Source: Candidatus Limosilactobacillus faecipullorum (lineage in GTDB: Bacteria; Bacillota; Bacilli; Lactobacillales; Lactobacillaceae). From it: a stretch of DNA of 32,667 nucleotides. The translations under genes were made by a program, and so were the position numbers. Below the pieces are notes generated by a model. The model ran no database searches, was not told the origin of the DNA, and saw nothing but the letters and a program-made list of their open reading frames with translations. The stretch's first letter is position 1. Every line of letters begins with the position of its first letter. The DNA lies in contig DWYX01000025.1 in assembly GCA_019118465.1 (NCBI GenBank), forward strand, positions 1-32,667, written 5' to 3'. Of this stretch, positions 3,198 to 11,676 are shown in pieces.

Positions 3198-3575
3198 TTA
3201 AGCTTTCTTTTCTTCTTCCAGCATCTTAACAATCTTTTCAAGGGATTCTTCAGCGCTGGCATATTTTGGTGTTTCAGGTTCAGCTGGCTTTGGCATGATC
3301 TTATTCATTGCCTTGACCAAAAGGAAGACCACGAAGGCAACGATTAGGAAGTTAATCACAGAATTCAAAAAGGCACCATACTTAAAGTGGGCGTTTCCAA
3401 CTGAAAGCACCAAATTTGAAAGATCAATCCGACCCAAGCAAACCCCGATTAGAGGATTGATTAAGTTCTTAACTAATGAAGTAACGATGGCAGTGAAGGC
3501 AGAACCAATAATCACTCCGACGGCAAGATCCATAACATTACCACGACTAATGAACTCTTTGAATTCTTTGAGCAT
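3198..3575 (-). CDS. mscL: Large-conductance mechanosensitive channel MscL
   Basis: The 125-residue protein is MscL, the pentameric membrane channel that opens under extreme tension to release solutes during hypo-osmotic shock. The N-terminal amphipathic helix and gate read [21 protein letters not shown] and lead into TM1 ([23 protein letters not shown]). TM2 is about residues 70-95 ([22 protein letters not shown]), and the C-terminal charged helix ends [15 protein letters not shown] place the start at ATG 3575, not at the in-frame TTG at 3581, because AAGGAAG lies 7 bases before the ATG and abuts the TTG. It is a single-gene unit with its own promoter and terminator. Confidence 0.97.
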
Positions 3576-3797: not shown

Positions 3798-4880
<1,083 letters not shown>

Positions 4881-10113: not shown

Positions 10114-10551
10114 ATGCGCGTATTACTACAACGGGTTAATCACGCCCAAGTCAAAGTTGATGGTGAAGTGGTCGGTAAGATCAAGAAAGGCTACCTCCTT
10201 TTGGTTGGTTTTGCCCCTGATGACACCAGTGATAAGGTTGACTACTTAGTCCATAAGATTACGAATTTAAGGGTCTTTGAAAGCGAACCTGGGAAGATGA
10301 ACCTAGGTCTCAAAGATGTCGATGGTGAGATTCTTTCAGTTTCCCAATTTACTCTCTACGCTGACGTAAAAAAGGGGAATCGGCCGGGCTTCTCAAATGC
10401 AGCTAAGCCGGACTTGGCCAAACTTCTCTATGAAGAATTTAATCAAAAGCTAGCAGCAACTGGGATTCATGTTGAAACTGGCCATTTTGGTGCTGATATG
10501 AAAGTCGAACTGGAAAACGATGGGCCAGTAACGATTTTTTATGAGAAATAA
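10114..10551 (+). CDS. dtd: D-aminoacyl-tRNA deacylase
   Basis: The 145-residue enzyme hydrolyses D-amino acids mischarged onto tRNA, D-Tyr-tRNA being the classic substrate, and also acts on Gly-tRNA(Ala) in the family. The two signature motifs are SQFTLYAD (77-84) and the NDGPVT segment (135-140), whose Gly-cisPro enforces chirality. Length is normal. ATG 10114 follows AGGAGG. It is the last gene of the rel unit; rel-dtd adjacency is also seen in Bacillus. What follows is a structured non-coding stretch without a classical plus-strand terminator. Confidence 0.96.
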
Positions 10552-10836
10552 TAAGAGGATGGGAAAGCCTCATCCATTAGCCAGCGAACGAGTGAGCTCA
10601 TTCAGCTACTGCTCTGGCATGGCTAGTTAGTGATTATAGATACAACAAAAGGCCACTAATTAAGGTTAAGTAACCAACTTATCGTTAGTAGCTTGTCTGC
10701 CTACGATAAGATTAAGCATTGAAATTTTAACATTTTGGACGTTAGTGAAGAATGTCAAATTCAATGCTGTGCCGGCTACGTTCCAACCTTCAAATTAGTG
10801 GCCTTAGTAGTTTCTGTCCAGCTTCTTTATAAAAAA
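10552..10836. other. Structured non-coding element between convergent genes
   Basis: Nothing here looks coding, but it is full of paired elements. A small hairpin spans 10557-10575 (GGATG/CATCC). TAGCCA (10578-10583) pairs with TGGCTA (10620-10625) around the near-palindrome GAGTGAGCTCATTC (10590-10603). The main body is a three-way junction. P1 pairs AAGGCCACTAATT (10649-10661) with AATTAGTGGCCTT (10793-10805), and AAGGTT (10662-10667) with AACCTT (10785-10790). P2 pairs CTTATCGT (10678-10685) with ACGATAAG (10703-10710). P3 pairs GCATTGAA (10716-10723) with TTCAATGC (10760-10767) and goes on with TTT/AAA and ACATT/AATGT. Read on the minus strand P1 is followed by TTTTGTTGT. It could be a terminator-like 3' region, an RNA, or a MITE-like repeat. 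Confidence 0.6.
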
Positions 10837-11676
10837 TTAAAACCGCCCCAAGATTTGATCAACGCTTGGGCCATAGCTTTCCCCAAACAGGATTAAATGC
10901 ATGCACAGGTAATAGAACTGATACCATGAGAGGCGGTCATTTAAACCTGGTCCAAGGGGTAAGACGCTTTGATAACCATTGTAGAAATCCTTTTCAAAGC
11001 CCCCAAAGATAGTGGTCGTGGCAATATCGAATTCCCGATCACCGTAGACGGCATCAGGGTCAATTAATAAAGGTTGGCCTTGATCATCAAACATAAAGTT
11101 ACCGGCCCAAAGATCGCCATGAAGGAGGCTTGGTTGAACTGAATGGTTAGCGTAGTAATGTTTAAAGGCAGTGACCATCTTGTCAAAGTGTTGGGCTCGC
11201 CAGTCGTTCCAAACACCATTTGACTTAGCAGCTTCAACTTCAGGTAGTAAACGTTGATGCACATAGAAGTCGACCCAGTCGGGATTCCACTGGTTATTTT
11301 TAACTAGGACTTTTGTCTTATGGTTAGTTGAAAAGCCAAATTTATCATTAGTAATTTGGTGCAACTTTGCGACGGCTTGGCCAAGTTTATATTGGTCTTC
11401 CCAGCCGCTTTCAATCCATTCAAGAATTAAAAAGGCGTTGCCTTCGATTTCCCCTTGAGCAACTGGATGGGGAACCTTAATTGCTTGTTCGAGGGCGGCG
11501 AGGCCATCCCGTTCGTGATCAAAATACGTGGCGGGACGGTTTGGTTGGACCTTGATAAAGTAAGGCTTATTATCAGCAATAACCTTAAAGGCAAGGTTAA
11601 TATCCCCACCAGATACTGGTTGATGACTTGTAATTTTTGCTAAAGGTAATTGTTCAAACCATTGATCATTTAGCAT
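10837..11676 (-). CDS. Fructosamine kinase family protein
   Basis: The 279-residue protein belongs to the fructosamine/ketosamine-3-kinase family within the aminoglycoside-phosphotransferase fold. These enzymes phosphorylate sugar adducts on amino groups and help deglycate proteins or free amino acids. The ATP-binding lysine is in YFIKVQPN (about residue 42). The catalytic loop HGDLWAGN is at 186-193 with metal-binding LLIDPDAVYGDREFDIA at 203-219. Length fits bacterial YniA-like members. The start is ATG 11676; only a weak AAAGAAGA precedes it. It converges on dtd and follows the amidase gene on the same strand, with 21 bases between, so the two may be co-transcribed. The natural substrate is unknown. 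Confidence 0.88.
   Translation of the reverse strand: MLNDQWFEQLPLAKITSHQPVSGGDINLAFKVIADNKPYFIKVQPNRPATYFDHERDGLAALEQAIKVPHPVAQGEIEGNAFLILEWIESGWEDQYKLGQAVAKLHQITNDKFGFSTNHKTKVLVKNNQWNPDWVDFYVHQRLLPEVEAAKSNGVWNDWRAQHFDKMVTAFKHYYANHSVQPSLLHGDLWAGNFMFDDQGQPLLIDPDAVYGDREFDIATTTIFGGFEKDFYNGYQSVLPLGPGLNDRLSWYQFYYLCMHLILFGESYGPSVDQILGRF

Follow-up and report, generated by a model that had tools for sequence, protein, structure and literature searches.

A mosaic repeat of the Lactobacillaceae that keeps a three-way junction fold, usually as an inverted pair

What occupies the gap between dtd and a convergent kinase gene in Candidatus Limosilactobacillus faecipullorum? The window (the whole stretch of DNA analysed, 32,667 nucleotides of contig DWYX01000025.1) carries there a strongly folded sequence, which a preliminary description took for a multi-helix non-coding element with a three-way junction, with a MITE-like repeat as the alternative. 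The gap is filled by one copy of a repeat (10552-10836), the two flanking genes running towards each other and ending at 10551 and 10837.

The copy in the window

The copy and its neighbours consist of the following parts.

10114..10551, + strand: dtd, D-aminoacyl-tRNA deacylase (TIGR00256, E 1.4e-58), flanking gene outside the element
10553..10830, + strand: the whole repeat copy, delimited by dispersed homologous copies and the neighbouring gene ends, with outer limits set by eye
10553..10566, + strand: left outer arm of GGATGGGAAA type, recognised from other copies and pairing weakly with the right arm here
10571..10634, - strand: probable decayed inverted partner core, now small hairpins, read by eye
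10649..10667, + strand: 5' strand of the 19-bp closing stem (complementarity and fold)
10664..10789, + strand: core, the three-way junction and family-wide conserved unit (match to covariance model R2, 72.8 bits, E 4.0e-18 in its own genome)
10679..10710, + strand: first inner hairpin, with a T.T mismatch at 10686/10702 (fold and core alignment)
10715..10768, + strand: second inner hairpin, of varying length among copies and absent from some (fold and copy comparison)
10785..10805, + strand: 3' strand of the closing stem, with a 2-nt bulge at 10791-10792 (complementarity and fold)
10812..10830, + strand: right outer arm (other copies and the fold of locus L013)
10837..11676, - strand: fructosamine-kinase family gene (PF03881, E 1.3e-82), convergent flanking gene outside the element

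The 19-bp closing stem with one 2-base bulge around two hairpins, as first described, is confirmed. Its 13-nt arms (10649-10661/10793-10805) are perfectly complementary, and it continues past the bulge as 10662-10667/10785-10790; of the two hairpins that it encloses, the second (arms 10715-10726/10757-10768) is the longer. On the plus strand the interval 10552-10836 folds at -92.7 kcal/mol against a shuffle mean of -63.7 (sd 4.6; z -6.27, with 0 of 200 shuffles as good), and the minus strand gives a fold z of -6.31. The core scored E 1.6e-19 against R2 in a second scoring, being itself one of the 42 sequences behind that model. In the fold of locus L013, an arm of the GGATGGGAAA type closes the entire element.

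The two smaller hairpins reported ahead of the stem are also present, and are best read as the probable decayed remnant of an inverted partner copy. This reading was judged by eye, because R2 detects no partner core in the window itself; intact opposite-strand partners occur elsewhere in the same genome (C28:16574-16677, E 1.5e-16; C41:6735-6827, E 3.3e-15).

The view that the structure exceeds the needs of a bidirectional terminator is supported. Neither a terminator-like consensus (a GC-rich stem followed by a T run) nor a promoter-like one occurs in 10300-11000; the locus lacks the form of a rho-independent terminator, and short terminator-like hairpins are features distinct from the element. 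Hairpins of this short kind, of GGCTGGGAAGAAA type, lie elsewhere in the same genome (C58:22372, C31:15151, C31:27620, C17:21475 and C47:47993); some are followed by a common tail of ACACAGAAACTACGGTC type, and their stem resembles the outer arms of the large elements. Rfam 15 likewise bears out the statement that no known RNA class matches: nothing in the window reaches a gathering cut-off, SpF22_sRNA (15.7 bits, E 1.3) being treated as a chance-level hit, and a scan of eight loci returned an unrelated T-box and no match overlapping the cores. Like Rfam families, the element is a covarying multi-helix structure, but no such family overlaps its core above chance.

A family that keeps its fold while its letters change

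The preliminary description had proposed searching for further copies in the genome and building a covariance model from relatives, looking for compensatory changes. The window's own genome (1.52 Mb in 59 contigs, 88% complete) returned 74 BLAST pieces for the interval at E <= 10, of which the weakest are chance and many are strong and lie at different loci; a longer copy used as the query returned 79 pieces at E <= 0.01. Twelve stretches of this genome unselected for the element (240 kb) held no core at E <= 0.01. The copies are mosaics of outer arms, a left branch, a core branch and interchangeable inner modules, and the modules around and inside the cores have been added, swapped or lost among copies.

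Two smaller pieces recur within these mosaics. One of them, module M, is a second repeat unit of roughly 95 nt that occupies varied branch positions (L034 3144-3244, with ten more copies in the same genome); aligned from 11 copies it has weak folding support, with 16 pairs of which 6 show double changes, and single folds at z -0.8 to -1.4. In the genome G025, a small insert CCAAATAGGCTAGCTTCGCGTCGC, or a near-identical one, sits at differing positions within the core at loci L221, L224, L226, L229 and L231, as if it were itself mobile.

The pairing is preserved as the letters change. Among 12 core copies from the window's own genome, 11 of 57 pairs have changed on both sides, where shuffles give 6.1 (1 of 500 as high); covariation scores 0.101, compared with 0.066 after shuffling (0 of 500 as high), and the outer helix has double changes in 5 of 12 pairs. 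For 42 cores from five species, aligned by sequence alone, RNAalifold gives 32 pairs, 29 of them with compensatory double changes, with 289 double-change cells against 80.2 in shuffles and a score of 0.599 against 0.203. Standard pairs fill 95.6% of the paired cells of this alignment, falling to 33-43% when the partner is slid; one of five covariation measures, the number of further pair types, is unexceptional (61 against 57.9, with 73 of 500 shuffles as high). The family's conserved unit, a three-way junction of 107 positions, keeps the T.T mismatch in 35 of the 42 cores, and its conserved unpaired letters include an internal loop, CAG / CGTTCC.

When the interval was compared by BLAST with the genus's 49 other genomes, no match reached E <= 1e-3, whereas a covariance model built solely from own-genome copies (R1) matched five of the 49 at E <= 0.1, four of them strongly and all four missed by BLAST (best matches 1.5e-19 in G025, 1.3e-18 in G024, 3.7e-17 in G047 and 1.8e-15 in G044); the sole weak match, in G009 (E 0.032), was taken as chance. 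Of 397 Lactobacillaceae genomes, 116 matched the second model, R2, at E <= 1e-4; they span 15 of 40 genera. The copy numbers of that survey are floors because nine candidates were scored per genome. Among 395 genomes drawn evenly across the order, all 24 positives belong to the Lactobacillaceae.

Copy number is often high. With up to 150 candidates scored, eight chosen carriers gave at least 150, at least 150, at least 150, 102, 78, 48, 48 and 22 matches at E <= 1e-3, G201 and G178 being among those with at least 150; within one genus, counts run from 2 matches among nine scored candidates in G129 to at least 150 copies in G201 and G178. Twenty evenly spaced stretches of G173 (400 kb) held 10 cores. 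Twenty stretches of G201 (382 kb) held 100, a density that overestimates the genome average because they were chosen around known copies. Plasmids carry the element too, with R2-confirmed cases in Levilactobacillus brevis, Lactiplantibacillus plantarum, Lacticaseibacillus paracasei, Loigolactobacillus backii and Pediococcus inopinatus, and a match by BLAST alone in Companilactobacillus futsaii; five copies used as queries matched plasmids, and the L015 and G254 copies matched neither plasmids nor phages. Two pattern scans of viral contigs gave no matches. A pattern scan of named genomes gave none either, the pattern being fitted to own-genome copies and saying nothing about the family.

These results dispose of the simplest explanation for the window locus, namely a chance fold beside a terminator. 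The position between convergent genes, and nothing else, speaks for it; it is refuted by copy number, covariation and homology across genera, and we regard it as practically untenable.

Inverted pairs, their ends and their settings

Cores keep a strict order. Across the stretches fetched from six genomes, together with 18 additional loci and with the window's own genome excluded, 78 of 81 pairs of neighbouring cores at most 700 bp apart are arranged as core(-) core(+), with two ++, one -- and no +- arrangement; 54 further cores have no neighbour within 700 bp, some as the stretch ended. All eight separate neighbouring pairs in the window's own genome are -+, some of them weakly scored (counted from the R2 match list), as are all 45 in G201, where the core-to-core gap is 149-187 nt in 44. 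The conserved GTTCCAG ends of paired cores point outward. The idea of one local RNA is wrong, because the junctions usually come as inverted pairs that recur throughout the genome; the inverted doublet as the dominant arrangement is a hallmark shared with REPINs and BIMEs, and the window copy has a single detectable core.

Terminal inverted repeats, as in MITEs, are present as well. G201 copies have imperfect inverted ends around CTARAACTGTTATRTTG, 481-515 bp apart in 39 of 45 copies, some ends matching poorly; beyond CTARAACTGTTATRTTG these ends extend outward as two types, and 32 of 41 copies combine the two. The outer arms in the window's own genome are less regular. With many loci in that genome and relatives across the family, the MITE-like alternative of the preliminary description stands as regards dispersal. 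The target duplications that it associated with a MITE are another matter: the 38 of 45 G201 pairs that passed the end filter share no common one at offsets 0-59 for words of 3, 4, 5, 6, 8 and 9 bases, and a duplication was possibly missed because the exact ends are uncertain.

Copies sit mostly between genes and, in the window's own genome (G000), mainly beyond the stop codons of gene pairs that converge. There, 11 of 15 classifiable strong loci are convergent, compared with 25 of 130 in a background of gaps 40 bp or longer from unselected stretches (Fisher p 3.8e-5), single assignments being liable to error because genes were simple ORF calls of at least 100 aa; this count leaves out C57:63971-64056 (E 2.2e-8), whose stretch was unfetched, and C28:1253, at an edge. 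A looser listing that admits shorter ORFs and fragmentary copies gives 24 of 42 by our own count of rows. The bias is strong in G000 alone and weaker or absent elsewhere: 13 of 41 loci are convergent in G201 against 39 of 198 gaps overall (p 0.029 against element-free gaps; 4 of 45 pairs unclassified), 9 of 20 in G025, 4 of 21 in G044, 0 of 6 in G024 and 0 of 1 in G047 (six loci of these last four genomes unclassified). Many copies lie in tandem or divergent gaps.

REP and BIME sequences have been proposed to absorb supercoils or to bind gyrase or a nucleoid protein, and cruciforms between transcription units could likewise organise the chromosome here. The long, near-perfect inverted repeats would suit such a role, as would the convergent bias of G000, weak in G201; but that bias is not general, as the counts for G044 and G024 show, and copy number varies widely in one genus, from the two matches in G129 to the abundance in G201 and G178, all of which makes this an unlikely account.

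Comparison of related sites gives some signs of movement. At one convergent gene pair, read by eye, the G201 element comes after the left stop codon and is followed in turn by a terminator-like hairpin; the same site in the congeneric G062, where the flanking genes are 79-81% identical to those of G201, has a short spacer and a terminator-like hairpin and no R2 core. This empty site may reflect gain in G201 or loss in G062, because G062 carries the element elsewhere. At the orthologous site, G099 (L324, about 2300-2600) has other hairpin-rich sequence, which R2 scores weakly (E 0.02) and which is possibly a diverged relative. The dtd-kinase spacer is 285 bp in the window, and 23 convergent orthologous rows have spacers of 43-209 bp (three rows repeat a listed genome; other gene orders and rows without a kinase match were omitted). 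R2 found no match over 39 named dtd loci, and the spacer of the nearest named relative by Dtd identity (94%), Limosilactobacillus alvi An810, is coreless. By eye, that spacer contains a fragment of module M (L041, about 3445-3490) and a terminator-like hairpin. An ISLre2-like insertion sequence, matching over 1.74 kb (98.7%) between L. brevis and L. plantarum plasmids, carries one core after its transposase gene. The core occupies 4006-4109 in both L268 and L269, between the transposase stop codon and the right end, and the insertion sequence is annotated ISLca4 in L268.

Of 14 genomes tested for the Y1 transposase domain (PF01797), 8 lack it; 7 of these 8 are carriers, one of them with at least 150 copies. 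G201, G062, G129, G254, G238, G069 and G173 are carriers without it, and it is absent too from G024, G025 (85% complete) and G047. A HUH/RAYT enzyme was rejected as the general mover because Y1 is lacking in so many carriers. A gene-bearing parent was considered at three widely spaced core pairs (L231, L195 and L316), in which no transposase was recognised: the cores of L231 and L195 enclose, respectively, a host aldo/keto-reductase-like gene (by eye) and no clear gene, and neither they nor L316 was accepted as such a parent. At L316 (14423-15622, in G201) core(-) and core(+) flank an ORF of 258 aa, membrane-like and with no significant family match; this is either a copy that bears a gene or a copy that has received an insertion.

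Selection on the fold, known systems and outlook

In a structured RNA, G.U pairs are expected far above A.C in the transcribed strand, and 19 distinct tRNAs from the fetched loci, our control, gave G.T 25 against A.C 0. The multi-species alignment of 42 cores gave 29 and 26, about equal and both rare. In G201, the 97 of 100 cores that passed the length filter, aligned by sequence, gave 95 against 38, with arms in core orientation at 44:22 and 51:16; model-fitted alignments, which lean towards pairing, gave G.T:A.C ratios of 19:7, 6:8, 99:36 and 144:70. G.T is the milder mismatch in DNA too. The counts appear to favour selection that acts chiefly on the fold and leans somewhat towards the sense strand, and the G201 excess hints at some selection on RNA.

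The near-equal rarity of the two mismatches across species is also what arm-to-arm copying predicts: quasi-palindrome template switching would correct one arm to the other, so that near-perfect stems would persist without function. Such copying should erase the T.T mismatch, yet most cores keep it, and the conserved internal-loop letters and the fixed -+ order would go unexplained; an unselected fold of this kind therefore seems very improbable.

The main rival is a role in RNA on both strands. A sense-orientation core in a transcript would serve as a 3'-end stabiliser, a processing site or a terminator, and the pair would serve the genes on both sides, as the convergent placement in G000 (11 of 15), the conserved loop letters and the G.T excess in both arms of the G201 cores could suggest. 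Against it, the multi-species G.T and A.C counts are alike whereas those of the tRNAs are not, a separate terminator-like hairpin stands beyond the element at the G201 site read closely (by eye), and many copies occupy tandem or divergent gaps. We consider this role possible, at well below even odds.

The reading that we prefer, with a probability of about 0.6, is that the element is a mosaic, non-autonomous, structure-preserving repeat of the Lactobacillaceae, a small mobile DNA recognised by its fold. The inverted pair would be its replicating unit, and the folded form, as single-stranded DNA or as a cruciform, would be the recognition target of a putative enzyme; selection would keep the fold and not the letters because this enzyme would recognise the folded form. 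Gene 3' flanks would be sites where insertions are tolerated. Whichever side a read-through transcript came from, it would contain one sense-oriented core, and any effect on transcript ends or stability would be a consequence of that core.

Among known systems, the closest parallels are with REPINs and BOX. In the accessible text of Bertels and Rainey (2011; PMC3116915), REPINs and BIMEs are inverted REP doublets, extragenic and present in many copies, with a hairpin showing compensatory changes and with clustered mosaics, and the element described here shares each of these traits. It differs in that REPs are short palindromes whereas its unit is a 107-position three-way junction, and in that many of its carriers lack the Y1 (RAYT) transposase of those systems. 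BOX, which combines boxA, boxB and boxC modules and belongs to S. pneumoniae and S. suis, is portrayed in the accessible text of Croucher (2011; PMC3049150) as modular, strongly folded, intergenic and over-represented between convergent genes, and is deemed non-autonomous mobile DNA. The likeness extends to modularity, strong fold, intergenic site and convergent enrichment; the inverted three-way-junction pair and the occurrence in 15 of 40 genera of one family set our element apart from BOX as described there. Prokaryotic MITEs, as outlined in the available part of PMC10969869, resemble it in that the typical copy is non-coding with imperfect terminal inverted repeats, about 500 bp in length in G201, but the target duplication of a MITE has no common counterpart in the 38 G201 pairs scanned, whose exact ends are uncertain. 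The element is best read as analogous to BOX or REPIN and larger.

The family has apparently gone undescribed. Titles and opening abstract lines of open-access papers, among the matches listed, mention no such repeat in lactobacilli; subscription papers fall mostly outside that body, and a prior description is possible. In the accessible text of two stem-loop surveys (PMC2267715, PMC1590033), L. johnsonii is the sole Lactobacillus named. The family was probably overlooked because its letters diverge too fast for BLAST, which found none of the four genomes in which R1 matched strongly.

A folded element that reaches at least 150 copies in a genome and shows deep covariation, seemingly undescribed in a much-studied bacterial family, bears on how the intergenic regions of lactobacilli are annotated. 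More tentatively, and as a conjecture that we hold to be rather doubtful, the inverted-pair three-way junction of about 107 positions, amplified in lactobacilli up to at least 150 copies in a genome, could be a new genome-wide element that signals Y1-independent, structure-directed mobilisation or, equally, a 3'-end RNA device working on both strands. The question that the element raises is what enzyme or RNA pathway would recognise a three-way junction set in an inverted pair.
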